Origin: Desulfosarcina sp. BuS5
GTDB lineage: Bacteria > Desulfobacterota > Desulfobacteria > Desulfobacterales > BuS5
Direction of reading: 5' to 3'
Length of the DNA: 64,000 nucleotides
NCBI RefSeq assembly: GCF_028752835.1
Contig: NZ_CP087952.1
Span: 1,779,041-1,843,040, forward strand
Under the pieces are notes generated by a model, which did not search any database, was not told the origin of the DNA, and was given only the letters and a program-made list of their open reading frames with translations. Of this stretch, positions 17,750 through 60,475 are shown one piece after another (position 1 is the first letter of the stretch; each line of letters begins with the position of its first letter). The translations under genes and the position numbers were made by a program.

Positions 17750-17846
17750 TAATTAAACTTATGCCATCAGGTATTAGCTTTTAGCTGTCAGCAGTTAAGA
17801 CCTAATAGCTGTTCATCATGGATTACCACGCTAATCCGTGATGAAC

Positions 17847-41782: not shown

Positions 41783-42967
41783 ATGAAGACCAAAAAAATA
41801 AAAATTAGCGCTGGATGGTTGATTGACGGGACTGGCGCACCGGCGCGCAGGAATGTAATTCTCGAAATTGAAAACGGCATAATCCAAAGCCTGTCTGATT
41901 CACAATTTTATAATGTTGATCAGGACGACATTGCGGATTTTTCAGCTTCCACTATTATTCCCGGTTTGATAGACAGCCATCTTCATCTATGTATGTCCGG
42001 CACAGATGATCAAAAAATAAGGCAAAAGCAGCTCAAGTCGACATTTGCCGATGCAGAGCATGTAATTTCAGCGCATCTGCGCCAGTTGCTTTTATCCGGC
42101 GTGATTGCCGTGAGGGACGGAGGTGATTACGGGGCCTATGCTTTACGCTATAAAAAAAAACGATATGATAAAAAAAAGGGCATTGTTGATATAAAAACAG
42201 CGGGGCGGGCATGGCGTAATCATGGAAGATATGGAAAGCTTATCGGGAGACCGCTATCCCGGGATAAAACTCTTGCGGAGGAAATACTTTATAATGATGA
42301 AAGCATAGATCATGTAAAAATTGTTAACTCCGGCCTTAATAGTCTAAAAAAATTCGGCAAGGAGACTCCGCCACAGTTTAATTTGAATGATTTAAAAGAT
42401 GCTGTAAATGCTGCATCATCATTAGGACTTAAAGTTATGGTGCATGCTAACGGCCGGCTTCCGGTAGAAAATGCGATTGAGGCGGGCTGCGCCTCGATTG
42501 AGCACGGTTTTTTTATGGGGAAAAAAAATCTTGGCCGAATGGCTGAAAAAAAGATTACCTGGGTTCCCACAGCCTGCACAATGAAAGCCTATGCAGAGTA
42601 TCTATCCCAGGATAGCATTGAAGCCAAAATCTCAAGAAAAACCCTGGAAGATCAGCTCGGGCAGCTTGTCAGGGCAAGAGCACTTGGTGTTACTGTTGCG
42701 GTTGGTACGGATTCAGGCAGCTTGGGCGTGCACCACGGCAGTTCCATTATTGAAGAATTAAAATTATTTATGCAGGCAGGTTTCTCTTTGGAAGAGACTC
42801 TCAAGGCATCGGTTCTGAATGGTTCCGCACTTATCGGACTAAATAAAACAGGACCGATTATCAAGGGAAACAAGGCATCTTTTATAGTTGTGGACGGGCC
42901 TCCCGCAGGTTTACCGGGAAGCCTGAAAAATATTAAAGCCGTTTATAAGGAGGAAGCATGGCATTAG
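41783..42967 (+). CDS. Amidohydrolase-family protein
   Basis: 394 residues. The metal ligands fit the amidohydrolase superfamily: PGLIDSHLHLCMSGTDDQ (HxH), the histidine in LKVMVHANGR, the next in SIEHGFFM and the aspartate in VAVGTDSGSLGVHHGS. The lysine position has VKIVNSG. It resembles imidazolonepropionase/prolidase-like members; the substrate is unknown. Its last 10 bases overlap rtcB, so coupling is likely. Confidence 0.8.
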   Translation: MKTKKIKISAGWLIDGTGAPARRNVILEIENGIIQSLSDSQFYNVDQDDIADFSASTIIPGLIDSHLHLCMSGTDDQKIRQKQLKSTFADAEHVISAHLRQLLLSGVIAVRDGGDYGAYALRYKKKRYDKKKGIVDIKTAGRAWRNHGRYGKLIGRPLSRDKTLAEEILYNDESIDHVKIVNSGLNSLKKFGKETPPQFNLNDLKDAVNAASSLGLKVMVHANGRLPVENAIEAGCASIEHGFFMGKKNLGRMAEKKITWVPTACTMKAYAEYLSQDSIEAKISRKTLEDQLGQLVRARALGVTVAVGTDSGSLGVHHGSSIIEELKLFMQAGFSLEETLKASVLNGSALIGLNKTGPIIKGNKASFIVVDGPPAGLPGSLKNIKAVYKEEAWH

Positions 42968-44165
42968 AAATATTTGATGATCCTTCCAGCATGAAGGTTC
43001 CCATTAAATCATGGTGTGCAAATATTGAGGCCGGAGCCAGGGCACAGGCCCTCAATGTCGCTAATCATCCTGCTGTTTTTCACCATTTTGCCTTAATGCC
43101 GGACTGCCACCAGGGGTATGGAATGCCCATCGGCGGTGTTGCGGCTTTAATGGATGCTATCAGTCCCAATATGGTTGGTGTTGATATAGGCTGCGGCATG
43201 ATTGCGGTTCAAACCGATATACCGGTAAAATATCTTCTAAAACAACAGATCAGAGAGATCCTTGAGCAGATTAAACGGACGGTGCCGGTAGGTTTTAACA
43301 GGCATAAAAAATGCAGACCTGGGATGGTTTTAAAGCAGGGCCGCCCAAATGGATGGATACAAAAAAATGGGATACTGCGAAAAAGAGTCTCGGCACACTG
43401 GGCGGCGGGAATCATTTTATAGAAATTCAGGTAGATGAGAGCGACTGCGTCTGGCTTATGCTTCATTCCGGTTCCAGGAATCCGGGCAAGACAATAGCCG
43501 ATTTTCATAACCGGATCGCCATAAAATTAAATAAAAAAATGAATATCAGTGCTGCAAACAAAGATCTTGCTTTTCTTCATTCCGATTCAAACGAAGGAAA
43601 AGCTTACCAAAAAGATATGAATTTCGCCCTTGCGTATGCCCTTGAAAATCGTAAACGGATGATGATCCGGTTTAAACAAATTTTTGCCGAAACTTTAAAA
43701 AAATTTCATCAAACAGAAGTTAACTTTATGCAGGAAATCAATATTCATCATAATTTTGCAGCTCTGGAAAAACACTTCGGCAGACAGGTCTGGGTCCATC
43801 GCAAGGGCGCTACATCCGCCTTAAAAAACGAAATGGGCATCATTCCAGGCTCAATGGGCACTCCTTCTTATATTGTCAAGGGGCTCGGTAATCCGGAATC
43901 TTTCATGTCATGTTCACATGGCGCCGGTCGTATTATGGGAAGGGGGCAGGCCTCTAAAACGCTTTCAAAGGAAAAATGCGATAAAGCTATGGAAGGTATT
44001 CTGTTCGACAGGTGGAACAAAATTTCACGGGGCAAAAAAAAGGGACTTTTTGATTTGGGAGAAGCCCCGGGCGCATACAAGAATATAGACTCGGTTATCG
44101 AAGCGCAACTTGATCTTGTAAAGCCTGTGGTAAAGCTTAAACCATTAGGTGTTGTTAAAGGTTAA
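42958..44165 (+). pseudogene. rtcB: RtcB-family RNA ligase, frameshift in an A-run
   Basis: ATG 42958 follows AAGGAGGAAGC. The first about 118 residues (MPDCHQGYGMPIGGV, GVDIGCGMIAVQTDI) read normally to FNRHKK, where six A's (43306-43311) are followed by the wrong frame. The rest is one frame back: TWDGFKAGPPKWMDTKKW, GTLGGGNHFIEIQVDESD, MLHSGSRNPGKTIADFH, VHRKGATSALKNEMG and SCSHGAGRIMGRG. Together about 402 residues carry the Cys and His metal ligands and the guanylylated histidine. RtcB joins RNA 3-prime phosphate to 5-prime OH ends. A missing A or an assembly error would equally explain the shift. Confidence 0.85.
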
Positions 44166-47815: not shown

Positions 47816-48988
47816 TTATTTTGTTGATATAAATTCATTCAGGTCTGAATTCAGTATGTTTTTAAGTTCAATAAAATTGTCTTCCCTGGTTTCCGTGAAC
47901 AGGAAACCAAAGACGGGATATTTTTGAAAATCAATTTTTCTAAGCTCTATTGGCTTTTCAAATTTTGAAAGTAATTTTTCATAATTAAAGGATGTAATCT
48001 CATCTGCATCTACGCCAGTCGAGTTGTTCAACACGATAACACAAAAGAGTTTTCCTTCTTTGCCTTTGAGAACCTCAGACCAATTTGGTTTTTTTTGTGA
48101 GTAATAATATAAGTAAGGGTTAAATCCATAGGCAAGGAAGGCTATATCCGGGGTAGTACACCAACCACCAAAGCGCATCGGATTAACCTCGATAGGTAAT
48201 AAAGTACCATCATTATCTCTTCTAAGCTCAATATGTACAGGAAAGTTTTTTACTCTAGCTAAATTCCCAATTTTTTCTGCAAACCCTGTAAATTCTTCAA
48301 GATTACTTTCGATAATTTTTTTGGATGAAATGTAAACTCTGTCACTAACATCGGTATCTGAAGAAAAAGTATGGTTCAGTATGTTTAGAATAACCGGTTC
48401 ACCAATCGAATTATAGTATACATCAACAGCAAATTCATCTCCATTAATACATTGTTCAATAATAAATAAACTGGTGTCTAACACCTCAGCGGGGTATAAA
48501 TCCTTAATTTGATCTATTTCTGCAATTATTGAATCAATTGTATTAGTCCACTCCTCAAAATTGGAAACCTTATAAACCCCCATGCTCATAAAACCAACAG
48601 CCGGTTTGATGATAAATGGGACAGGCAATTCGCTAAATTGAATCTGTTTTAAGTCTTCGACACCAACACTTTTGAAATAGAAGTTAGGAAAAATTGATTT
48701 TGTCAGCTCACGAAATTTCAATTTGTTTTTAAATAACTCTATTTTTCCAGGAAGATTACTGAAAGCTAAATTCTTCGATATCCAACCTATTGAATTTTCA
48801 GATGTAGTATAGATGGCAGGATTATCTGACTCGCGAGTCATTTTAATAGCTTTATCTTCACTAACTATTTTCGTCCCACTGTAAAGGTCCAACTCTTTAG
48901 TTATATCTGTATCGACTACAGGTATGGCATTGTCTCTGACAGTCATTTTGAAAAAATCCGAGACGTATGGCTTATCTACAAAAAACAT
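47816..48988 (-). CDS. ATP-grasp domain protein
   Basis: 390 residues. ATP-grasp features are IIKPAVGFMSMGVYKVSN, IEQCINGDEFAVDVYYNS and PVHIELRRDNDGTLLPIEVN followed by PMRFGG, which bind ATP and magnesium. Such enzymes join a carboxylate to an amine or thiol; the substrate is unknown. The start ATG 48988 has a weak ribosome site. It stands alone, facing away from the reductase-like cluster, with no sign of an operon. Confidence 0.75.
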   Translation of the reverse strand: MFFVDKPYVSDFFKMTVRDNAIPVVDTDITKELDLYSGTKIVSEDKAIKMTRESDNPAIYTTSENSIGWISKNLAFSNLPGKIELFKNKLKFRELTKSIFPNFYFKSVGVEDLKQIQFSELPVPFIIKPAVGFMSMGVYKVSNFEEWTNTIDSIIAEIDQIKDLYPAEVLDTSLFIIEQCINGDEFAVDVYYNSIGEPVILNILNHTFSSDTDVSDRVYISSKKIIESNLEEFTGFAEKIGNLARVKNFPVHIELRRDNDGTLLPIEVNPMRFGGWCTTPDIAFLAYGFNPYLYYYSQKKPNWSEVLKGKEGKLFCVIVLNNSTGVDADEITSFNYEKLLSKFEKPIELRKIDFQKYPVFGFLFTETREDNFIELKNILNSDLNEFISTK

Positions 48989-49440
48989 TATTACCTATCC
49001 CTGATTGTGTGCCGGGCACGGCACATATTTTAAACATATCATGTAGTAAATCGTTTGACAAGTCTTAGACCCTGCCGGCCGGATGGAGGCGAAGGGTATA
49101 GCGATATTACAGTACTTTCTTGTCAGCGGTAACTTGAAAATGCCGGAAATACAGGAAAAATCGATAGAATTTTTTAATATTTGACATTATAATATACTAT
49201 ACTATACTATATTATAACATAATAAAAAGTGCCTTATTCGCAATACTTACGGCTATTCACGCTGATGTAGTGGATATTGCCACTTTGCAAAGAGTCCATT
49301 TATGGTGCGAATATTCAAATAGTTTAGAAGAAACAAGATCAAAGTGAATCGCCGCGGAGGTGAGGAGTGAAAGCTGCTTGCCTGCGGCTTTTTTCTGTTT
49401 GCGCGTGTGCCTGGCGTATACCAAAAAAGGAGACAGGATC
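48989..49440. other. Upstream region of the reductase-like cluster
   Basis: No gene is supported. A promoter with pentamer repeats (49181-49230) is listed separately. The leader from about 49215 to 49440 is about 225 nt and contains a short GC-rich part (CGCCGCGGAGGTGAGG, about 49351) but no riboswitch I recognise. AAAAAGGAGACAGGATC precedes the ATG at 49441. Confidence 0.4.
49181..49208 (+). promoter_or_regulatory. Promoter with ATACT pentamer repeats in its spacer
   Basis: TTGACA (49181-49186), a 16-nt spacer and TATACT (49203-49208). Three perfect ATACT units followed by degenerate ones (ATATT, ATAAC, ATAAT) run through the spacer and past the -10. Gain or loss of a unit would change spacing by 5 bp. 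Confidence 0.55.
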
Positions 49441-50562
49441 ATGGCAGTCGAAGAATTAATCCGAACTGGAGGAACGTTATATAATCGTTATATTGATGAC
49501 TGGAAAAAAGACGGGGGAAAAGTCATAGGTTACACTTGCAGTTATGCGCCTGAAGAGATTTTGATAGCTGCGGGCTTTTTGCCCGTCAGGCTTAATGCAA
49601 CAGGTTCCACTGAAACCAATAAGGCAGATGTTTATATGCCGAAATTTCACTGCTTGTTTTCGAAGCATCTCCTGGATCAAGGTCTGTCTAAAGCATTTGA
49701 TTTTATGGATGGGGTTGTTTTCGTAAATACCTGCGATCAATTGAGACGCATGTATGATGTCTGGATCAAGCTCATAAAATTTCCCTATCAAACCATTATG
49801 GTGGTGCCCTATTCTTACGACAAAGAAGATTTTGAATGGTATCTGGAGAATGAGGTAAAAAAACTCAGGGACGATCTGGAAAAAGCCTATGACGTAAAAA
49901 TTACGGACAAAGCCCTGGCTGATGCAATAAATGTCTGCAATGAAACCAGGGACCTTCAAGCCAAATTATATGACTTCAGAGGAGGTGCGGAGCCTATGAT
50001 TAATGGGGCTGATACCCACAAGATCATCCTTGCCGGAACCTCCATGCCCAAGAAAAAGTATAACGAATTGCTCAAGGAGTCCCTGGACGAACTGGAGAAG
50101 AGAGATCCTATTACAGATTACAGGGCCCGAATTCTCATTGGAGGAAGCGTCATAGATCAGCCCGAAGTGATACGTGTTATCGAAGATGCCGGAGGTCTTG
50201 TGGTTACAGATGTTCTTTGTACCGGCACACGATGGATCATGGACAAGGTGGAAGTGAATGAGGATCCCCTTTACGCCATTGCCAAGCGATATTACGATCA
50301 CCAGCCCTGTCCAAGGATGACCTTTGTTTATGAGCGAAAACGTGATTTTGTGTTAGATATGGCCAAAAAATATGATGTGGACGGGGCCATTTTTTTCAAA
50401 ATAGCCTTTTGCGACCATCATTCGGGAGACAACCCCTTGTACAAGGAAGATCTGGAAGATATTGGCGTGCCGGCTCTGCTTCTGGACAGGGATTACAGGA
50501 TAACGGATATAGGCAGATTCACGACGAGGATCGAGGCTTTTTTTGAAAAACTCGGGAAATAA
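49441..50562 (+). CDS. 2-hydroxyacyl-CoA dehydratase/benzoyl-CoA reductase family, BcrC/BzdN-like subunit
   Basis: 373 residues from ATG 49441 (AAAAAGGAGACAGGATC before it). Cysteines at 71 (KFHCLFSKHLLD), 98 (NTCDQLRRMYD) and 324 (FKIAFCDHHSGD) are at positions that bind the catalytic Fe-S cluster in this family. GTSMPKKKYNELLKES and LIGGSVIDQPEVIRVIEDAG are family motifs. It is the first gene of a five-gene operon; the order and sizes (373, 469, 266, 265 residues) match bzdNOPQ of class I benzoyl-CoA reductases. The enzyme probably removes water from, or reduces, an acyl- or aryl-CoA; the substrate is not known. Confidence 0.85.
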   Translation: MAVEELIRTGGTLYNRYIDDWKKDGGKVIGYTCSYAPEEILIAAGFLPVRLNATGSTETNKADVYMPKFHCLFSKHLLDQGLSKAFDFMDGVVFVNTCDQLRRMYDVWIKLIKFPYQTIMVVPYSYDKEDFEWYLENEVKKLRDDLEKAYDVKITDKALADAINVCNETRDLQAKLYDFRGGAEPMINGADTHKIILAGTSMPKKKYNELLKESLDELEKRDPITDYRARILIGGSVIDQPEVIRVIEDAGGLVVTDVLCTGTRWIMDKVEVNEDPLYAIAKRYYDHQPCPRMTFVYERKRDFVLDMAKKYDVDGAIFFKIAFCDHHSGDNPLYKEDLEDIGVPALLLDRDYRITDIGRFTTRIEAFFEKLGK

Positions 50563-50575
50563 TGGAGGATAAACT

Positions 50576-51985
50576 ATGGAAACGGTTCCTAAAGAGTTAG
50601 AAGGAATAGAGTTGTTTCAAAGATATTTGACTACTTTTGAGCTGGTTAAAACAGCATTAACCAGTTTTGAAACCGTAGAAGATCTTATGGCCGCAGCGCC
50701 GGAAATATTAAAGACCTTGCCGGAGTATGCGGTTAAAGTGTTTCAGTCATTAAGACCGGATCTTGTTGTTGCGGCCTTTCATCCAAAAAACAGGGGCGCT
50801 ATACTGAAATGTGCGGAAGCTCAGATTCCGTTTTGGCAGGGTATCATTGATGACATCAAGGCGGATAAGCCACAGCTGGATTTCTGGTTTGCGCAGGGGC
50901 CGGAATTATTTCGTGCCCTGGGGTTTTCTCCGCTCTGCAGCGAGGCCACCATGGTTGCCTCTGCCATGTATAAAGAAGGATGTGAAGATGCCATTGATAA
51001 ATTCAGGATGAGAGGATTTGCCGATCATCTTTGCACGGCCAATGTGGCTTACCCCGGTTATGTGATGAATGGGAACTGGAAGCCTCCCCACGTCATGGTA
51101 AAACCGGGGACACCTTGCCCTTCGAGTAACCTGGCATACCAGGCCATTAAGAAATGGTATGGCAATGAATATGTTATGTATGATTCAACCTACTACTTAG
51201 ACAAAGATGGCCTGATGCATCAGAGCGATGCCATTAAAAGGGCCATACCAAAACTTGAGAAGATATCGGGACAAAAACTTGATGAAGATCTATTCAGACA
51301 GCAGATGGAGGAAAGTAACAAGACCTATGCCCTTTGCGGTGAACTGCTTGAACTTAGAAAGAATAAGCCCAATCCCGATCCGGGTATGCATCGTCTCCTG
51401 GATCTGCTTATGATGGTCACCCTCCTCGGGAAGCCGTCATGTACCGAGTATTTTCAATTTATCGTAGATGAGGCTAAAGAGAGGTTATCCAATAAGGGTA
51501 CCCCCGTAATTCCGGAAGGGAAAAAAGAGATCAGGGCACTCCACACCTGGGCTATGAACGCATATACTCCCGAGCTGTATCACTGGCTTGAAGAGACCTA
51601 TGGGATGACCTACATTACTTGTGGGCTCTCTTATTTCATTGATCATCAGGTGGACACTTCATCGGTAGATTCAATGATCGAGGGATGGGCACAGAGAATC
51701 ATGAATTTTGCCATGGAAAGACAGAGCATGAGCTTCGGTGATGTGTGGCTTGATGACATGATCTATCTGGCAAAAGACTGGGATGCTGATTGCGGCATAT
51801 TTGGGGGAAACTTGTCATGCAAACAGGGTTGGGCCATCAGCAAACTTCTGGCGGATAGACTGGAAGATGAGTTGAATATCCCTTCAACACGATTTGAAAT
51901 CGAATTGTGTGATAAACGGACATGTCCCCCGGATGAGTTCAAACACCGCATTGGAAGTTTTGTAGAAACCGTTTTGGCAGACTAA
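50576..51985 (+). CDS. 2-hydroxyacyl-CoA dehydratase/benzoyl-CoA reductase family, BcrB/BzdO-like subunit
   Basis: 469 residues, 14 bp after the BzdN-like gene with GGAGGATAAACT as ribosome site. Candidate cluster cysteines are in FSPLCSEATMVASAM, PGTPCPSSNLAYQAI and DWDADCGIFGGNLSCKQGW. The family helix EIELCDKRTC lies near the C-terminus. It should pair with the preceding subunit to form the catalytic heterodimer that receives low-potential electrons from the ASKHA proteins. The length matches BzdO/BcrB better than HgdA-type dehydratase subunits, but the assignment remains tentative. Confidence 0.83.
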   Translation: METVPKELEGIELFQRYLTTFELVKTALTSFETVEDLMAAAPEILKTLPEYAVKVFQSLRPDLVVAAFHPKNRGAILKCAEAQIPFWQGIIDDIKADKPQLDFWFAQGPELFRALGFSPLCSEATMVASAMYKEGCEDAIDKFRMRGFADHLCTANVAYPGYVMNGNWKPPHVMVKPGTPCPSSNLAYQAIKKWYGNEYVMYDSTYYLDKDGLMHQSDAIKRAIPKLEKISGQKLDEDLFRQQMEESNKTYALCGELLELRKNKPNPDPGMHRLLDLLMMVTLLGKPSCTEYFQFIVDEAKERLSNKGTPVIPEGKKEIRALHTWAMNAYTPELYHWLEETYGMTYITCGLSYFIDHQVDTSSVDSMIEGWAQRIMNFAMERQSMSFGDVWLDDMIYLAKDWDADCGIFGGNLSCKQGWAISKLLADRLEDELNIPSTRFEIELCDKRTCPPDEFKHRIGSFVETVLAD

Positions 51986-52036
51986 TTGATAGACCAATTT
52001 AGTCTCCGTTCCGCTTACAATAAAGCGAGGTCAGCA

Positions 52037-52837
52037 ATGATAGTTGCAGGAGTAGATGTTGGATCCCTTTCCGCTGAAGCAGTAATTATGAAAGATGGTG
52101 AGATTGTTGCGTTTGAGATTATAACCGTCAGGCCCATGCCAATACAATCATCAACAGAGGCCATGGAAAAGGCCCTTGCAAAGGCCGGGCTTAAAATGGA
52201 AGATATAGATTATTGTGTTAGCACAGGTTATGGGCGTGATGAAATACCCTTTTCTAAAAAAACCATCTCTGAAATCTCCTGTCATGGAAGAGGCGCTCAC
52301 TGGTGTCAACCCTCTGTAAGGGGAATTATTGACATCGGCGGGCAAGATTGTAAGGCCATTATTGTGAATAAAGATGGCGGGTTGGTCGATTTTGTCATGA
52401 ATGACAAATGCGCAGCGGGAACAGGAAGGTTTCTGGAAATTATGTCAAAGGTCCTGGACGTTGATGTCTCCGATTTGGGGCAGATGACCTTCCAATCGGA
52501 TAATCCAATAAAAATTTCAAGCAGATGCAGCGTTTTTGCAGAATATGAGGCCATGTTTTTACTCGCCGAGGATAAAAATGCCATTGATATAGGCGCGGGA
52601 GTCAATAAGGCTATGGCTGAAAGGGCATTTTCTTTGGCAGGCAGAATCAAGTTGAATGGTAAAATTGATGGGGATGTGACTGTCACGGGCGGTGTTGCAA
52701 AGAATGTGGGGGTCATCAAAAATTTGGGAAATCTTTTTGGGCGTGAAATTACCGGGTTATCTCTGGACCCCCAGATCATGGGAGCCTTGGGGGCGGCGTT
52801 GTTTGCTCAAATGCATTATGATAAGGAGAAAGAATAG
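52037..52837 (+). CDS. ASKHA-type activating ATPase subunit (BcrD/BzdQ/HgdC-like)
   Basis: About 266 residues from ATG 52037 (GCGAGGTCAGCA before it). The ATPase phosphate-1 loop is VAGVDVGSLSAEAVIMKDG; the phosphate-2 loop is GIIDIGGQDCKAIIV. The [4Fe-4S] helix-cluster-helix cysteines are in NDKCAAGTGRFLEIM and SSRCSVFAEYEAMFLL. The end VTVTGGVAKNVGVI and DPQIMGALGAALFAQ is typical. It would hydrolyse ATP to push electrons to the catalytic subunits. It is immediately followed by a second, non-identical copy. Confidence 0.88.
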   Translation: MIVAGVDVGSLSAEAVIMKDGEIVAFEIITVRPMPIQSSTEAMEKALAKAGLKMEDIDYCVSTGYGRDEIPFSKKTISEISCHGRGAHWCQPSVRGIIDIGGQDCKAIIVNKDGGLVDFVMNDKCAAGTGRFLEIMSKVLDVDVSDLGQMTFQSDNPIKISSRCSVFAEYEAMFLLAEDKNAIDIGAGVNKAMAERAFSLAGRIKLNGKIDGDVTVTGGVAKNVGVIKNLGNLFGREITGLSLDPQIMGALGAALFAQMHYDKEKE

Positions 52838-53635
52838 ATGCCATTTGTAATAGGGATGGATGTGGGGCTGGTTGCCATAAAAGGGGTAATTTTAGAAAAT
52901 GATAATATTATTGCGCAGGTTATAAAAGATACAGGCGTAAAGCCTGCTTTGGCAGCAAAGGCCTGTTATGATGAATTACTCGCAAAGGCCAACCTGGGTC
53001 ATGGCGAGATTAAAGGTTTTGGGGTAACGGGATGGGGCGCAAAAAGGGTATCGCTCGGTCCGGAACTGAACGGTCCGGATCTGAAAATTAAATCTGAGGT
53101 TGTTTGCCTTGCTAAAGGAGCAAGGTGGGTTTTGCCTACTTCAAGAACGGTGGTGGATATCGGGGCCCAAATTGTAAAGGTGGCCCGTTTTTCTGAGAAT
53201 GCAAAGGTAAAGAGATTCGACCAGAGTGACAAATGCGCTGCAGGGGCGGGACGATTCCTGGATATAATGTCAGCGGCCCTGGAATTGGATGTAGCGCGTC
53301 TGGGAAAGATAGGTGCCTCTGCATCCAAAATGGTTGAAATTTCGTCCCAGTGCAGTGTTTTTGGCGAGAGTGAAATTGTAAGCTATTTGAATACAGGAGA
53401 AAAGATAGAGGATATTGCAAATGGCATTAACTACTCCATCGCGAAAAGGGTTTCAACAATCGTTATGAGACTCGGTTTAGAGGAGGATATCATTGTAACA
53501 GGCGGGGTTGCGCAAAATCCCGAGGTCATCAGATATTTAGAGGATATGCTCGGGACTGAATTTAAAAGATATAGTGCAAACCCCCAGGTGATCGGCGCCA
53601 TAGGTGCGGCCTTATTTGCCCAGGAAATATTATAG
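52838..53635 (+). CDS. Second ASKHA-type subunit (BcrA/BzdP-like)
   Basis: 265 residues; ATG directly follows the previous stop. Phosphate-1 loop VIGMDVGLVAIKGVILEND, cluster cysteines in SDKCAAGAGRFLDIM and SSQCSVFGESEIVSYL, and an end IIVTGGVAQNPEVIR are kept. The phosphate-2 loop reads VVDIGAQIVKVARFS where its partner has IGGQDCK, so GQD is changed to AQI. Benzoyl-CoA reductases of class I use such unequal pairs, whereas hydroxyacyl-CoA dehydratases use a homodimer. The pairing is the main reason to favour a reductase-like enzyme. Confidence 0.83.
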   Translation: MPFVIGMDVGLVAIKGVILENDNIIAQVIKDTGVKPALAAKACYDELLAKANLGHGEIKGFGVTGWGAKRVSLGPELNGPDLKIKSEVVCLAKGARWVLPTSRTVVDIGAQIVKVARFSENAKVKRFDQSDKCAAGAGRFLDIMSAALELDVARLGKIGASASKMVEISSQCSVFGESEIVSYLNTGEKIEDIANGINYSIAKRVSTIVMRLGLEEDIIVTGGVAQNPEVIRYLEDMLGTEFKRYSANPQVIGAIGAALFAQEIL

Positions 53636-53647
53636 AAAGGATAGTTA

Positions 53648-54412
53648 GTGAAAAAAATAATAGCCGTCAGTGGTAAAGGTGGTATCGGAAAATCAACTCT
53701 GGCAGCATTGATTACCAGGGTTCTTTCTGATAGAGCAGATCACAAAATTCTTCTCGTGGATGCTGATCCGTCAATTAACCTGACTCTCATGCTCGGGCTG
53801 GATGCAAGCAAGACCCTGAACAACCTGAGGGAACGCTTTGTCAAAAGCGCCGAGGCTGCCCAGGAAGCCATGTTCGGTGATAAACATATACGGGATACAA
53901 TTTTCGAGGAATGTTTGCAGGATGCGGGAACATTCAAGCTCCTTACAATGGGAAGGCCGGAAGGGCCGGGATGTTTTTGCTCAGTCAATGTATTGTTGAG
54001 ATACGGTATTGAAAGTATTTCAAAGGAGTTTGACGTAACCATTATCGACTGTGAGGCTGGTCCTGAACAGATCAACCGAAGAGTTACAAAAGATATAGAT
54101 GATCTGATACTTGTCATCGAACCGACCCTAAGGAGTGTCCAAACAGCATTATATATTAAAGACGTTGCAGAAAGTTATGGTGTACAAAAATCATTTGGTT
54201 GCAACATTATTTTGAATAAGGCAGATAAAAAGGACAGAATAGAAAAAATAAGATCGGTTTTAAAAAAAGAAGGCACAGAAATTTCCGGAATCGTACCCAT
54301 GGACGAAAATATTGCTAAATACGACGTTATTGGAAAATCCATATTTGATCTGCCTGGGGAATCGCCGAGTGTAAAAGCTGTTAAGAAAATTATGAAAACA
54401 CTATATACATAG
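53648..54412 (+). CDS. CooC-like (MinD/SIMIBI) ATPase
   Basis: 254 residues, start GTG 53648 after AAAGGATAGTTA. The deviant Walker A is GKGGIGKSTLAALI, the next motif VDADPSINLTLMLGL, and a CooC/AcsF-like cysteine pair sits in GPGCFCSVN, with TIIDCEAGPEQINRRVTKDI. CooC and AcsF insert nickel into CO dehydrogenase and acetyl-CoA synthase. Neither enzyme is encoded nearby, so this one may assemble the reductase's metal clusters. It is last in the operon; a hairpin follows about 120 bp later. Confidence 0.82.
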   Translation: MKKIIAVSGKGGIGKSTLAALITRVLSDRADHKILLVDADPSINLTLMLGLDASKTLNNLRERFVKSAEAAQEAMFGDKHIRDTIFEECLQDAGTFKLLTMGRPEGPGCFCSVNVLLRYGIESISKEFDVTIIDCEAGPEQINRRVTKDIDDLILVIEPTLRSVQTALYIKDVAESYGVQKSFGCNIILNKADKKDRIEKIRSVLKKEGTEISGIVPMDENIAKYDVIGKSIFDLPGESPSVKAVKKIMKTLYT

Positions 54413-54533
54413 AACGGACATTCCGCATCCCTTGACAACAATTTTCCTGATTTCAGGACTCCCCTTACCTCTGGATACCCGATCGTCTCATTTCCCAGTG
54501 AAAATGTCATAAAATCTCTATTTTAAAAATGTG

Positions 54534-54654
54534 GTTCATCACGGATTAGTGTGGTAATCCATGATGAACAGCTAAAAGCTAATACCTGATGGCATAAGTT
54601 TAATTAGTATATGCTCAAGAAATAGAATCTCCACAATAATCCGCTATGATCCAA
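54534..54654 (+). repeat. Uninterrupted copy of the repeat that hosts the IS at 16.1-17.7 kb; hairpin terminator
   Basis: Begins with a perfect or near-perfect hairpin GTTCATCACGGATTA (54534-54548) / TAATCCATGATGAAC (54555-54569), followed by AGCTAATACCTGATGGCATA and TTTAATTAGTATATGCTC. It ends near GCTATGATCCAA. TAATTA occurs once at the site where the other copy has the IS. It probably terminates the reductase-like operon. Confidence 0.75.
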
Positions 54655-54786
54655 AAATGTATAATAAAAAAAGTCAGCCGGTCATGATTTTTGTGCCGAC
54701 TTATTTTTTTGTTGTTTTTTAGACATCCACCATATAACTTCAAAAGTACTTTACACTTTTTTGACAAATAAATCTATCTGTGTTTA

Positions 54787-54795
54787 TGCTATAAT
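54787..54795 (+). promoter_or_regulatory. Extended -10 element before the OsmC gene
   Basis: TG-C-TATAAT (54787-54795) is an extended -10. A TTGACA lies at 54761-54766, but 23 nt away, too far for a normal -35. The intergenic 54655-54963 also contains a spare AAAAGGAGGTGTATT at about 54859 with no frame behind it. Confidence 0.4.
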
Positions 54796-54963
54796 TGAAC
54801 AATTTTCTGAATTAGTTCCTGCTGAAAGGAGTGGTAATTCAGAGCAATAAAATACTCTTCGAAAAGGAGGTGTATTAAGATTATTTTGTAAACCGTCAAT
54901 TTTTGTCTCATTTTGGGAATATGATGCAATTGTTTTTTGGAACAAGAAAAGGAGAAGAATAAA

Positions 54964-55524
54964 ATGAACGAAGTGGCTAATGTAAAAAATGGTGTTAATG
55001 TTGATCAGTTAGTCGGCACAATTAACGCTATCAAGAGCGATCCGGATATCGCCAGGTTTCAATTCAGGGCGGAAACCAAGTGGGTGAATGGTGGGCATTG
55101 CCGGACTGAGTTCAAAAATTTTTACGGGGCCAAGGCGGAAGATACCTCCCGGACAAAATCACTTGTGATAGAAGGAGATGAGCCTTCCGTTTTGTTGGGA
55201 GAAGACCATGGAGCAAATGCAGTCGAAGCGGTGTTGCATGCAATGGGGTCTTGCTTATGTGTAGGATTTATTTACAACGCCTCAGCTCAAGGCATTTCCA
55301 TTGAATCGTTGGATTTTAGTTTGGAAGGTAACATTGATCTACATGCTTTCCTTGGCCTGTCCGAGACGATACGACCTGGATATGAGAATATAAAAGTGAA
55401 GTTCAGAGTCAAGGCTGATGCATCCAAAGAAAAATTATTAGAACTATGCGCCTATGTTCAGAAAACCTCGCCGCTTTTAGATATCATCCGCAACCCGGTG
55501 CCGGTCACGATAGAAATGGAATAG
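54964..55524 (+). CDS. OsmC-family protein
   Basis: About 186 residues from ATG 54964 (AAGGAGAAGAATAAA before it). The OsmC/YhfA fold signature is visible: ANAVEAVLHAMGSCLCVGFI with a conserved cysteine and, late, CAYVQKTSPLLDIIRNPVPV. Glu/Arg residues of the family are partly visible in RFRAETKW-like FRAETKWVNG. OsmC proteins reduce organic hydroperoxides with paired cysteines; here two cysteines are adjacent (SCLC), so the role may differ. First gene of the second transcription unit. Confidence 0.82.
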   Translation: MNEVANVKNGVNVDQLVGTINAIKSDPDIARFQFRAETKWVNGGHCRTEFKNFYGAKAEDTSRTKSLVIEGDEPSVLLGEDHGANAVEAVLHAMGSCLCVGFIYNASAQGISIESLDFSLEGNIDLHAFLGLSETIRPGYENIKVKFRVKADASKEKLLELCAYVQKTSPLLDIIRNPVPVTIEME

Positions 55525-55613
55525 TTTGCAAAAAATACGGCTACCACTTAGGAACTGTCCAGAATTAAGTTGAACATTAACGAACATTTTTCCGAATTTT
55601 GGAGGTATTTACA

Positions 55614-56969
55614 ATGGTTTCTCAAGAACTTGCGAAGTTTGTTTTGAAGACCGACTATCAAAATATTCCAAATGCTGCTTTACAAAAAGCAAAGGCCAGT
55701 CTGATTGACTCTGTTGGTACAATGCTGGCAGGTGCGAAGGAAGATGCAGGTAGCATAATAGTAAGATATGTTGAAAAAACAGGAGGAGCGCCGGCAGCAA
55801 GTCTTGTCGGGCATAAAATTAAAAGTTCGGTTTATAATGCTGCAATGGCTAACGGCACCATGGGACATGTTCAGGATTATGACGATATGAGTCCTACCTT
55901 GATTGGCCATCCCAGCATATCTGTATTACCGGCGGTTTTGGCTTTGGGAGAAGAACAAAAAATCAGCGGAGAAGAAATGCTTTCGGCTTTTACCATCGGG
56001 ATTGAAGTAGAATGCAAAATTGGCCGGGGTACGATTCCTCAACATTATGAAAATGGCTGGCACCCTACTGCTACTATTGGTATATTTGGCGCTGCTGCTG
56101 CATCTGCCAAAATTTTGGGATTAAGTGAACAGGAAATTATTTATGCCCTGGGTATCGCGGGGAGTGAGTCTTCCGGTTTAAGGGAAAATTTCGGTACAAT
56201 GACAAAACCTTTTCATGCCGGGCGGGCTGCCGCCAAGGGAACAATGTCTGCTATGCTGGCAAAGGAGGGCTTTACCAGTACCCCCAAAATATTTGAGGGC
56301 AAAGCCGGTTTCTGTAAGGTAATGGCAGTTGAATATGATGAAAATAAAATCATCGACCGGTTAGGCAATCCCTTTGATGTTGAAGATCCCGGCTTTACAA
56401 TTAAGCCCTATCCTACATGCGGGGCTGCTCATCCGGCTATTGATGCCGTTATTTCTCTAAGCAGGGAACATGATTTAAAAGCAGATGAAATTAAACAGAT
56501 TAAATGCGGGACGGTTCCGATTGGCAGGGATGTTCTTGTATATCCAAAACCTGCAACACCCCTTGAAGCGAAATTCAGCATGGAATATTGTTTGGCTGTC
56601 GCTTTGATTGAAAAAAAGGTCGGCTTCTCTCAATTTTCCGATAAAAAGATTAATGCTCCTGAAATCAAACAGCTTCTTGAAAAAGTGGATATGTATCTTT
56701 CTCCGGAAATGTCGGATTTGGGTTACCGTGGTACCTTTAACGCTGATATTAAAATAGTTTTAAAAGACGGAAAAGAATATAGCAAAAGGGTTGATCATGG
56801 CCGGGGAGATCCTGCAAATCCCTTGACTGAAGAGGAGCTTTTGGAAAAATATTCTGATTGTGCAGCCTTGGCACTCGATTCTGAAAAAATCAAAAGATCA
56901 AAGGAGATGCTCTCCGGTCTTGAACAATTATCAGATATCAGCCTTTTGATGGATATATTGAGAGGCTAA
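55614..56969 (+). CDS. MmgE/PrpD-family protein (first copy)
   Basis: About 451 residues from ATG 55614 (TGGAGGTATTTACA before it). The all-helical lyase domain shows HVQDYDDMSPTLIGHPSISV, then NGWHPTATIGIFGAAAASAK, and the lid domain begins around IKPYPTCGAAHPAIDAVI. The family contains 2-methylcitrate dehydratase, cis-aconitate decarboxylase and iminodisuccinate epimerase, so activity cannot be set from family alone. Its neighbours are OsmC and the OYE-type enzyme. It is related to, but clearly different from, the copy at 59114. Confidence 0.85.
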   Translation: MVSQELAKFVLKTDYQNIPNAALQKAKASLIDSVGTMLAGAKEDAGSIIVRYVEKTGGAPAASLVGHKIKSSVYNAAMANGTMGHVQDYDDMSPTLIGHPSISVLPAVLALGEEQKISGEEMLSAFTIGIEVECKIGRGTIPQHYENGWHPTATIGIFGAAAASAKILGLSEQEIIYALGIAGSESSGLRENFGTMTKPFHAGRAAAKGTMSAMLAKEGFTSTPKIFEGKAGFCKVMAVEYDENKIIDRLGNPFDVEDPGFTIKPYPTCGAAHPAIDAVISLSREHDLKADEIKQIKCGTVPIGRDVLVYPKPATPLEAKFSMEYCLAVALIEKKVGFSQFSDKKINAPEIKQLLEKVDMYLSPEMSDLGYRGTFNADIKIVLKDGKEYSKRVDHGRGDPANPLTEEELLEKYSDCAALALDSEKIKRSKEMLSGLEQLSDISLLMDILRG

Positions 56970-56970
56970 C

Positions 56971-57011
56971 TAGTACCTGAACGAAAACAGCTATTTTTCG
57001 TTCGGGCACTA
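56971..57011 (+). repeat. REP-like hairpin between MmgE/PrpD and OYE genes
   Basis: TAGTACCTGAACGAAAA (56971-56987) pairs with TTTTTCGTTCGGGCACTA (56994-57011). Same motif as the elements at 39.8 kb and 44.2-44.4 kb. Inside a 63-bp gap, it may set the relative stability of the two mRNA parts. Confidence 0.6.
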
Positions 57012-57032
57012 CACACAAAAAGGAGAAAAGTT

Positions 57033-58991
57033 ATGAAATTGCTTGAACCTTGTAAAATAGGAAACATGGAATTGAAAAACAGGGTAGTTCTTGCGCCGAT
57101 GTCAAACAATTTAATGAAGGACGGATTTATTACGGAAAGAGCAATTAGATTTTATGAAAACATTGCAAAAGGCGGTGTAGGCTTAATAACCTGTGAAGAC
57201 GGAATCGTTGATTTTCCATTAGGAAATAATGTCAAGTTTCCTGCTGCGATTGATGATGACAAGTATATTCCCATGTTAAAAAAATTCAATGACACGATTC
57301 ATCTCCATGGCGTAAAAACAATTATGCAGTTGGCTCATGGCGGCCGGCGAGCTGGTCGGGTGGCAAAAAAATCGGGTTGTCTCGATGTAACCAGGGGGCT
57401 TATTCCTGTGGGTCCATCAGAGGTCGCCCACCCGGCACCCGGCTATGTTGTTCCCCAAGAGTTGAGTGTTGATCAGATCAAACATGTGGTGGAACAATTT
57501 GGCCAGGGAGCCGGAAGGGCTATGGAAGCAGGCTTTGACGCTATAGGACTTCACTGTGCCCATATGTATTTATGCGGCGAGTTTTTATCACCCTGGGCAA
57601 ACAAAAGAACAGACGCCTACGGCGGAACTTTTGAAAAACGATTAACATTTGTATTGGAAGTTATTGAACGGATCAGAAAAGAAGCCGGCAACGACCATCC
57701 AATTATTGTAAGAATGAACGGCATGGAACCTGGGGGAGGTAATTCCCTTGCAGACATTCGTAAAATAGGGCAGGCTTTTGAAAAAGCAGGAATAGATGCT
57801 ATTCATGTTTCGGTCGGTTTTGCTGCCACGATCAAGGATCCGGCATTTATTCCTTCCATTCCTTCAATGCGTCTTGATGACGGCCCCATTGTTCATCTGG
57901 CGGAAAATATTAAAAAGGGTGTTCAAATACCGGTTATCGCAGTTAACAAGATCAGAACCCCGCAATTTGCCGAAAAGATTCTGCAGGAAGGAAAAGCCGA
58001 CCTGATCGCTTTGGGCCGGACGCTTGTAGCTGACCCGAATTTTGTCAATAAAACCATTGAAGAAAAATATGATGATATTCGTCCTTGTATTTCCTGCTGC
58101 CAGGGATGTATTCAAAATGTTGTGGAAAAAGATCTGCCCATGACATGCACGGTAAATCCCATGGCTGGAAGAGAAGGAGAATTCAAACTTGAAAAGGCTG
58201 ACAAGCAGAAAAAGGTTTTGATTGCAGGGGGCGGCCCGGGAGGATTGGAAACGGCAATTGTTGCTGCTAAAAGAGGACATGCTGTAACGATCTATGAAAA
58301 ACGTAACAAGCTAGGGGGGCTGTTGATAGAGGCGGCTATCCCTCCCCACAAAACCGATATTAACCGGTTGACTGATTATTTTACCAAACAGGTTGATAAA
58401 TTGGGTATCAAGGTAGTTTTAAATACCGAGATTACCCCGGCCATTGTTAATGATGAAAAGCCGGAGGCATTAATTATTGCTGTGGGAGGCGATAATCTAA
58501 TACCTCCAATTCCTGGAGTAGAAAATGAAATTGTAGTTTCGGCTTTGGATGTTCTTAACCAAAAGGTTACGCTGGGTAAAAATATTGTTATTATCGGCGG
58601 CGGTCAAACTGGACTGGAACTGGCTGAATTTTTGGGAGAAAATGGCAAAAAACCAATAGTTATTGAAATGCAGGACAATGTCGGCGCCGGCATGCCTTCC
58701 CAGGTAAAAACACCGCTTATGTTCAGCCTTGAAGATTTTGGCGTAAATATTATAACAATGGCAGAAGCAAAAGAGATTACAAAAGATGGCGTTATGATTA
58801 CTCAAGGGGGGCAGGAAAGACTTATTGAAGCAGATACCGTTATCCTGGCAAGCGGGTTTAAGGGAAAGCCTGAATTCAATGAAAGTTTCAAAGATGCGGC
58901 TCCTGAAGTTTTTTCCATCGGCAATTGTGTTAAACAGGGAAATATCCTGGATGCAATTCAAAAAGGTTTTTTAACGGCAATTAAACTTTAA
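57033..58991 (+). CDS. Old Yellow Enzyme-type Fe-S/FAD oxidoreductase (2-enoate/dienoyl-CoA reductase-like)
   Basis: 652 residues after AAGGAGAAAAGTT. The FMN barrel (residues 1-340) has NRVVLAPMSNNLMKDGFITE and HCAHMYLCGEFLSPWANKRT with DAYGG. Then [4Fe-4S] cysteines lie in CISCCQGCIQ (352-361) and MTCTVNPMAG. FAD binding is at VLIAGGGPGGLETAIVAAKR (about 397) and NAD(P) binding at IVIIGGGQTGLELAEFLGEN (about 518). Relatives reduce 2-enoates, dienoyl-CoAs, bile-acid intermediates or naphthoyl-CoA. Position between two MmgE/PrpD genes suggests it acts on the product or substrate of those enzymes. No CoA ligase is near. Confidence 0.88.
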   Translation: MKLLEPCKIGNMELKNRVVLAPMSNNLMKDGFITERAIRFYENIAKGGVGLITCEDGIVDFPLGNNVKFPAAIDDDKYIPMLKKFNDTIHLHGVKTIMQLAHGGRRAGRVAKKSGCLDVTRGLIPVGPSEVAHPAPGYVVPQELSVDQIKHVVEQFGQGAGRAMEAGFDAIGLHCAHMYLCGEFLSPWANKRTDAYGGTFEKRLTFVLEVIERIRKEAGNDHPIIVRMNGMEPGGGNSLADIRKIGQAFEKAGIDAIHVSVGFAATIKDPAFIPSIPSMRLDDGPIVHLAENIKKGVQIPVIAVNKIRTPQFAEKILQEGKADLIALGRTLVADPNFVNKTIEEKYDDIRPCISCCQGCIQNVVEKDLPMTCTVNPMAGREGEFKLEKADKQKKVLIAGGGPGGLETAIVAAKRGHAVTIYEKRNKLGGLLIEAAIPPHKTDINRLTDYFTKQVDKLGIKVVLNTEITPAIVNDEKPEALIIAVGGDNLIPPIPGVENEIVVSALDVLNQKVTLGKNIVIIGGGQTGLELAEFLGENGKKPIVIEMQDNVGAGMPSQVKTPLMFSLEDFGVNIITMAEAKEITKDGVMITQGGQERLIEADTVILASGFKGKPEFNESFKDAAPEVFSIGNCVKQGNILDAIQKGFLTAIKL

Positions 58992-59113
58992 AACATCGGT
59001 CAGAGGTATACCTCGGAAGGTTATCTATTGTGAGCCTAATCTTGTGATCTGTTCATGGCCATTGGAAAAATGCAATTTATGGCCTTTCGAGGTATATATA
59101 AGGAGGATATACA

Positions 59114-60475
59114 ATGGCTCCAACTAAAGAATTGGCAATCTTTCTCGCAGAAAAAGAATTTGGCGATATTCCTGAAGAGGTGATTGAACAGTCTAAACTG
59201 CTGATTATTGATGCCATAGGGTGTGGATTAGGCGGATTTACCGAGGCTTCAGAAGAGGCGGACTGGATTGTAGAGCTTGTTAAAGAACAGGGCGGAAATG
59301 ACGAGGCTACTGTTTTTTGCGACGGTTTTAAAACATCTGCTGCAAATGCAGCCCTTGCAAATGCTACAATTGCCCATACCATTGATTTTGATGATACTCA
59401 TATGGGATCTTTGACTCATTTAGGAGCTTCGCTGATTCCAACTATTTTTGCTATGGGCGAACGTGCCCATGCCGGCGGTTCCGATATAATAACAGCATTT
59501 GTTTTAGGATTTGAAGCAGCAGCCCGAATCGGACGTTCAGTAATGCCCACCCATTACAAATACTGGCATCCGACAGGAACATCAGGTATATTTGGATCAG
59601 CAGTTGCGGCCGGAAAAATCCTGAATTTTAATGCCCAACAGATGGAGATGGTCATAGGACACGCCGCAGATCAAACCGGAGGACTTCGATATGGTGTGGA
59701 CAAGGGGGATTTTTCAAAAAGTCTTCACCCGGGGTTTGCGGCAATGAAAGGAGTCCTTCTTTCTCTTTTGGTCGCAAAAGGGGCCACCGGACCTAAAGGT
59801 ATCCTGGAATACCCTACCGGTTTTTGCCGGGCATATTGCCCGGATGAGCCTGATCTTGAATCCATTGGAGCAAACCTTGGGTCAGATTATCTGGTTATGG
59901 AAGATGGTATAAAGGCTTATCCGACTATCTTGTGCAGCCATTCTCCTATCCAGGCCACATTGGAAATAATCAGTAAGAAAAATATAGATCCGGCTGATAT
60001 CAAAGAAATTCACATCCGGCAAAACGATCTTGCAAAAGGACAGGGGTGTAATTATGCTCCGGATACAGTACTGGCCGCCCGGCTCTCCATACCTTATTGT
60101 GTTGCAATGGCAGCATCTCAAGGTAATGTTTCATTATCCCAGTTTACAAATGAAAAACTAAATGATAATAAAATCAAAGAGATAATGAGTAAGATTAAAA
60201 TACAGGGAGATCCTGAATTAAATAAAAAATACCCGGATACAATTGCTGCCTTTGTTGACCTTAAAACCCAGGATGGTACCCTCTTTGAACAATCAGTTAT
60301 CTATCCAAAGGGAAATCCCAAAAATAAAATGAGCAAAAATGAAGTTCAGGCGAAATTCCGGGATCTTGCCCTGTTGAGCCTGGATAAATCAAAAGTCGGC
60401 AACCTTTTCAAGAAACTTATGGAGCTGGAAAAAATAAATGATATAATAGAAGTCATTCCTTTACTGATAAAGTAA
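59114..60475 (+). CDS. MmgE/PrpD-family protein (second copy)
   Basis: 453 residues from ATG 59114 (AAGGAGGATATACA). Family hallmarks are TIAHTIDFDDTHMGSLTHLG, YKYWHPTGTSGIFGSAVAAG and a lid starting at IKAYPTILCSHSPIQATLEI, where the other copy has YPTCGAAHP. HTIDFDDTH here versus HVQDYDDMS there shows different active-site surroundings. The two copies may act on successive intermediates or as partners. It is 122 bp after the OYE gene and last in the unit before mfd. Confidence 0.85.
   Translation: MAPTKELAIFLAEKEFGDIPEEVIEQSKLLIIDAIGCGLGGFTEASEEADWIVELVKEQGGNDEATVFCDGFKTSAANAALANATIAHTIDFDDTHMGSLTHLGASLIPTIFAMGERAHAGGSDIITAFVLGFEAAARIGRSVMPTHYKYWHPTGTSGIFGSAVAAGKILNFNAQQMEMVIGHAADQTGGLRYGVDKGDFSKSLHPGFAAMKGVLLSLLVAKGATGPKGILEYPTGFCRAYCPDEPDLESIGANLGSDYLVMEDGIKAYPTILCSHSPIQATLEIISKKNIDPADIKEIHIRQNDLAKGQGCNYAPDTVLAARLSIPYCVAMAASQGNVSLSQFTNEKLNDNKIKEIMSKIKIQGDPELNKKYPDTIAAFVDLKTQDGTLFEQSVIYPKGNPKNKMSKNEVQAKFRDLALLSLDKSKVGNLFKKLMELEKINDIIEVIPLLIK

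Follow-up and report, generated by a model that had tools for sequence, protein, structure and literature searches.

The window analysed here is a 64-kb stretch of the genome of Desulfosarcina sp. BuS5, which is 97% complete. In it, two subunits resembling those of benzoyl-CoA reductase (BCR), termed N and O, are followed by two BcrA/D-type ATPases, a CooC-type ATPase, an OsmC-family protein and two MmgE/PrpD proteins flanking a reductase of the old yellow enzyme (OYE) type. The reading favoured here, with moderate confidence, is that the first five genes (49441-54412) encode a member of a new clade of reductases of the acyl/aryl-CoA type, powered by ATP and served by a metallochaperone of their own, and that OsmC-PrpD-OYE-PrpD are probably separate. 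Judged from sequence, the family, the ligand residues, the conserved five-gene unit, the CxC motif of the CooC-type protein and the separate clade are established. An open reading frame (ORF) check and profile searches place all nine genes on the plus strand, in the positions and in the bzdNOPQ-like order, continued by CooC, OsmC, MmgE/PrpD, OYE and MmgE/PrpD, that an earlier sequence-only reading had described.

Cluster ligands and family placement of N and O

N (49441..50562, +; 373 aa) and BzdN, the electron-transfer subunit of BzdNOPQ from Azoarcus/Aromatoleum (PDB 8s02), align over their full lengths. In BzdN the [8Fe-9S] double cubane is held by Cys 36, 73, 100, 263, 293 and 327 (PMC11971306), and an alignment check of these ligands finds all six in N, as C33, C71, C98, C260, C290 and C324, so that a double cubane is predicted. 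The six cysteines are kept in 13/13 aligned N proteins of the cassette clade described below, whereas in the same alignment HadC of (R)-2-hydroxyisocaproyl-CoA dehydratase lacks two (BzdN positions 36 and 263) and MbdN of 3-methylbenzoyl-CoA reductase lacks three. Double cubanes have been reported only from BzdN and from DCCP, both of which are reductases (PMC11971306). The AlphaFold model of N (pLDDT 91.7) superposes best on BzdN in Foldseek (TM 0.93). A search for N among plasmids gave distant relatives only.

O (50576..51985, +; 469 aa), assigned by profile search, alignment and AlphaFold/Foldseek, is a divergent catalytic subunit with an N-terminal helical extension that distinguishes it from BzdO. 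Of the BzdO active-site set tested (Cys95, Cys128, Cys380, Glu65 and His131), the three cysteines of the predicted [4Fe-4S] cluster are present as C153, C181 and C415 and the glutamate as E123, and these four residues are kept in all cassette-clade O proteins where the region is covered. His131, constant in the BzdO proteins above the curated cut-off, is replaced by S184. As MbdO and HadB also lack this histidine, its loss alone cannot separate a reductase from a dehydratase.

Membership of the superfamily formed by BCR, 2-hydroxyacyl-CoA dehydratase (HAD) and DCCP is clear, since the HGD-D domain (PF06050) is found in N with 304 bits and in O with 145 bits, and PF01869 in the ATPases with 205 and 148 bits; the sequence-only reading of a system of this type with a CooC-like partner is upheld. 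The curated Bzd subunit models (TIGR03190, 03191, 03192), by contrast, are failed throughout: N scores 222 bits vs 453.8, O 34 vs 448.6, and the better activase reaches 218 vs 380.2 for BzdQ. In line with the claim that this is no standard benzoate operon, a BamA-type ring hydrolase above cut-off is missing from the whole window genome, and that identity is rejected. Similarity to MbdONPQ (PDB 9g87/9gai) extends to the fold and the four subunits, but the sequences are distant. The 'Magic' benzene cluster of ORM2a was also rejected as a match, its proteins being different.

In order to place both subunits, quick trees with SH-aLRT support only and some long branches were calculated from 49 rows for N and 50 rows for O, including reference BzdO sequences above the curated cut-off, found in 7/395 genomes of the same phylum, together with their retrieved partner genes. 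The trees agree in a single cassette clade of 13-15 rows (SH-aLRT 94-98), which contains several families of Desulfobacterota, metagenome-assembled genomes (MAGs) labelled Myxococcota, a Jordarchaeia archaeon (L056) and the archaeon H03B2 (L060). For both subunits this clade lies well apart from BzdN/BzdO, from HadBC with MbdNO and from DCCP, so that the tree check suggested by the sequence-only reading leaves N and O outside every characterised clade sampled.

The conserved cassette and its CooC-type partner

Downstream of O follow activase 1 (51986..52837, +), with a likely alternative in-frame ATG start at 52037, and activase 2 (52838..53635, +), both above the TIGR00241 cut-off. Activase 1 is the strongly conserved member of the pair and activase 2 the less conserved one; the order is swapped with respect to most relatives, the conserved ATPase coming first in the window. 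The fifth gene (53648..54412, +) encodes a P-loop protein with the motif GKGGIGKS and a CxC site, C109-F-C111. Its best solved relative over the whole sequence is CooC1 (PDB 3kje, E 6e-17), the nickel-delivery ATPase of CO dehydrogenase (CODH), and the CxC aligns with the metal-binding Cys112 and Cys114 of that protein. By these sequence features it is a member of the CooC family, as it had been labelled. Unlike CooC1, however, it is encoded beside a BCR-like reductase and not beside CODH. The window genome holds three further CooC-type paralogues with CxC, one of them adjoining a CODH-sized gene, so the present protein is an extra, cassette-borne copy. In the same genome a CooC-like P-loop protein with CxC is seen at L199 6919-14365 (G000:C1:2181918-2189364), between an AMP-ligase and an apparent biotin-synthesis run that includes, among others, a radical SAM/BATS gene.

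Ten loci of the cassette clade, the window and a sister MAG among them, carry the unit N-O-ATPase-ATPase-CooC in the same or nearly identical order; the neighbourhood is therefore conserved in other Desulfobacterota and beyond. The Jordarchaeia locus differs in having CooC ahead of N and two copies of O, and two further loci of the clade stop at a contig edge, one of which (L040) shows a different ORF there. In the wider clade CooC is present at seven loci and missing from L044, L047 and L052. None of the 11/11 Bzd-type loci and the 1/1 Had-type locus examined carries CooC, which gives an association of 16/20 vs 0/12 loci (Fisher p about 2e-5), the loci not being independent of one another. 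In all CooC homologues aligned the CxC is invariant. A literature search for BCR with CooC, using a term that also matches 'co-occur' words, gave four papers, none of which, judged by title and abstract, is known to report this pairing. Nickel chaperones beside a flavin oxidoreductase are known from an isoprene reductase operon (PMC10134865), which is a parallel only, its proteins being unrelated.

In five lineages (L037, L041, L042, L043, L058) an aldehyde ferredoxin oxidoreductase (AFOR) and an AMP-forming acyl-CoA ligase precede N, and most of these loci also carry an acyl-CoA dehydrogenase farther upstream. The ligases score as FadD-like rather than as benzoate-CoA ligases, under every curated cut-off; the best model of the dehydrogenase is cyclohexane-1-carbonyl-CoA dehydrogenase, far under cut-off. 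This recurrent ligase and AFOR make acyl-CoA chemistry likely. L039 and L040 have instead two CrtI/CrtO-like FAD oxidoreductases and an SDR as neighbours, and near the cassettes of L038 and L063 a glycyl-radical enzyme of 992-993 aa with an extra N-terminal part of about 200 residues is encoded (L038 5511-8492, L063 9140-12118), for which an identity as X-succinate synthase was rejected in favour of the PFL2-3 type. The variety of neighbours suggests that one reductase type is used in a number of pathways whose substrates are acyl-CoAs or cyclic compounds.

The OsmC, PrpD and OYE genes and the layout of the locus

The four genes of the second half encode an OsmC-family protein (54937..55524, +; Pfam OsmC 56 bits; second in-frame ATG at 54964) whose link to the reductase is unproven, MmgE/PrpD-1 (55599..56969, +), OYE (57033..58991, +) and MmgE/PrpD-2 (59114..60475, +), the two MmgE/PrpD proteins being assigned with Pfam. 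MmgE/PrpD-1 has iminodisuccinate epimerase and cis-aconitate decarboxylase as nearest solved relatives, and MmgE/PrpD-2 has homologues of 47-55% in one other family of the phylum. OYE, a flavin Fe-S reductase of the FadH type found by profile search, has 2-naphthoyl-CoA reductase (PDB 6qkg, E 9.5e-104) as its closest solved relative, ahead of the 2,4-dienoyl-CoA reductase FadH (1ps9); the link to naphthoyl-CoA enzymes drawn by the sequence-only reading thus holds. Full-length homology and the Fe-S motif of this class III aryl-CoA reductase are present, and the position of FadH His252 is occupied by Ala. Many unassigned OYEs of the phylum likewise share 38-49% identity with it.

All nine genes had been proposed to form one pathway, in which N-O-P-Q would reduce a ring or enoyl thioester, OYE another double bond, and the MmgE/PrpD proteins would hydrate, epimerise or decarboxylate the product. 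The shared orientation, the similarity of OYE to 2-naphthoyl-CoA reductase and the occurrence of OYE genes near class I-type reductase genes in naphthalene degraders (PMC12016498) agree with this, as does the sister MAG G395 (also L055, Desulfobacterales isolate G11), which keeps the cassette through OsmC at 95-97% identity and PrpD-1 with OYE at 94-97%. In G395, however, OsmC is followed by a restriction-type gene, and PrpD-1 and OYE lie on a separate contig behind a DUF1016 gene; restriction-modification genes seem to have been inserted here between OsmC and PrpD-1. Furthermore, the first five genes are spaced by 0-13 bp, whereas a gap of 524 bp follows CooC and holds a terminator-like hairpin with a subsequent T run (54673..54713, +; read from the sequence, RNA fold z -2.0 for 54660-54740) as well as a promoter-like site, TTGACA-18-TATGCT (54761..54790, +; 10/12 in a consensus scan). 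The best site of the region, TTGACA-16-TATACT (49181..49208, +; 11/12), lies upstream of N and is likewise a consensus match without proof of function. Apart from the nearly identical sister MAG, no other fetched cassette locus carries OsmC, MmgE/PrpD or an OYE of the window type, and in other families PrpD and OYE are paired in the absence of the cassette. Given this gap, the lack of co-occurrence and the pairs elsewhere, the sequence argues that OsmC-PrpD-OYE-PrpD is probably a neighbouring, separately transcribed module; a single nine-gene pathway is unlikely, though by no means far-fetched. A second congener, G396 (83% complete), shows at a contig end no more than a shortened CooC and the first part of OsmC, with N and O missing, which looks like loss of the cassette or may be an assembly effect.

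Within the second half the intergenic gaps measure 74, 63 and 122 bp. The last of these, between OYE and PrpD-2, contains a part (59043-59103) with 80-91% matches of 45-60 bp at several short sites in sister genomes, which suggests a short dispersed repeat. Bordering the block are an ATP-grasp gene that runs leftward (47816-48988) and a rightward gene termed mfd-like from reading its translation. An inverted repeat, GTTCATCAYGGATTA...TAATCCRTGATGAAC, is found at 54534-54569 and 17811-17846 (4 matches vs none expected by chance); its flanking sequence recurs elsewhere in the genome, and it is read as a dispersed hairpin element. An RtcB-like gene, assigned by eye, consists of two overlapping frames (42958-43422 and 43311-44165) and is probably frameshifted or split.

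Alternative functions and proposed mechanism

Instead of a catabolic reductase, the five proteins might constitute a complex for the reductive activation or the maturation of a different enzyme, possibly one with nickel. CooC as the nickel-delivery protein of CODH and the CxC kept in its window companion are compatible with this, and so is the presence of a BcrA/D-type family among the methanogenesis markers (TIGR03286, matched in the profile search). A protein of 240-280 aa resembling the middle domain of acetyl-CoA synthase (ACS)/CdhC and bearing a C-terminal CxxCx5C motif is encoded adjoining or near CooC at five loci of the wider clade and Jordarchaeia (L046, L056, L068, L070, L072). Nevertheless, the neighbours within the subclade of the window are recurrently acyl-CoA ligase, acyl-CoA dehydrogenase and AFOR, and O retains the catalytic glutamate and cysteines, which renders an activator improbable. 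The activation complex of MCR was set aside as a relative, its own paper stating no BCR/HAD homology.

A dehydratase for an unusual 2-hydroxy acid is slightly more improbable still. HadBC (PDB 3o3m) belongs to the same family and shares the fold and the three catalytic [4Fe-4S] cysteines, and HadB is for O both the best NCBIfam match (65.6 bits) and the first Foldseek match, before MbdO and BzdO (AlphaFold pLDDT 90.4); it also lacks the histidine. Yet N has the complete set of double-cubane ligands that is degraded in HadC, two distinct ATPase genes are present and not one, and the cassette clade does not cluster with HadBC. A DCCP-like reductase of small molecules, acting on no CoA substrate, is scarcely credible, for although N has 6/6 of the ligands common to DCCP and BzdN and a BcrA/D-type ATPase partner is found in both systems (PDB 6eno/7yyl), DCCPs form homodimers in which each chain holds a double cubane, O with its three ligands predicts a heterodimer with a single one, and the window genome encodes a separate DCCP. 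The latter, with its own BcrA/D-type ATPase, is located at G000:C1:2701999-2703042 (L035 7055-9322) and is 51% identical to the solved DCCP.

Several observations weigh against an acyl/aryl-CoA reductase as well. The branch leading to the window pair is long (0.73 in the N tree, 1.1 in the O tree), and together with the swapped ATPase order this means that its substrate may differ from that of the relatives. The window contains no BamA-type hydrolase, no AFOR and no relative of the AMP-forming CoA ligases that accompany the other cassettes, and searches of its own genome for a pathway split between loci found none, the best homologues of the clade's ligase and AFOR reaching 31% and 30% and BamA being missing as mentioned above. 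Finally, O is without His131, though the known aryl-CoA reductase MbdO is too, and the incomplete ligand set of MbdN means that a double cubane is not obligatory for ring reduction.

Reductases with BcrA/D-type ATPases supply electrons of a potential low enough for Birch-type chemistry. For the window system we infer reduction rather than dehydration and a CoA thioester as substrate. The two ATPases would form a heterodimer supplied with electrons by ferredoxin or another donor of low potential. ATP hydrolysis would drive these electrons into N and its [8Fe-9S] double cubane, from which they would pass to the [4Fe-4S] cluster of O. There, an acyl- or aryl-CoA that is hard to reduce, be it aromatic, alicyclic or conjugated, would be reduced. 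The CooC-type ATPase would serve as dedicated maturation factor, its presumed cargo being a metal or a cluster under assembly for the reductase. The products of OsmC-PrpD-OYE-PrpD may contribute to this pathway or be unconnected with it.

A bolder version, which we hold to be rather unlikely, is a nickel- or other heterometal-containing member of the BCR/HAD family, in which CooC would insert a non-iron metal into the catalytic or double-cubane site, forming a class spread across bacteria and Asgard archaea with a substrate class beyond the known aryl-CoA reductases.

A separate clade with its own CooC would imply a new metal centre in the BCR/HAD family or else a hitherto unseen assembly factor for double cubanes, for which the literature searched for this analysis gave no description of an assembly route. 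The clade is common to Desulfobacterota and archaea, and its genes, accompanied in relatives by a ligase and AFOR, would be a lead to an unrecognised step of anaerobic carbon degradation.

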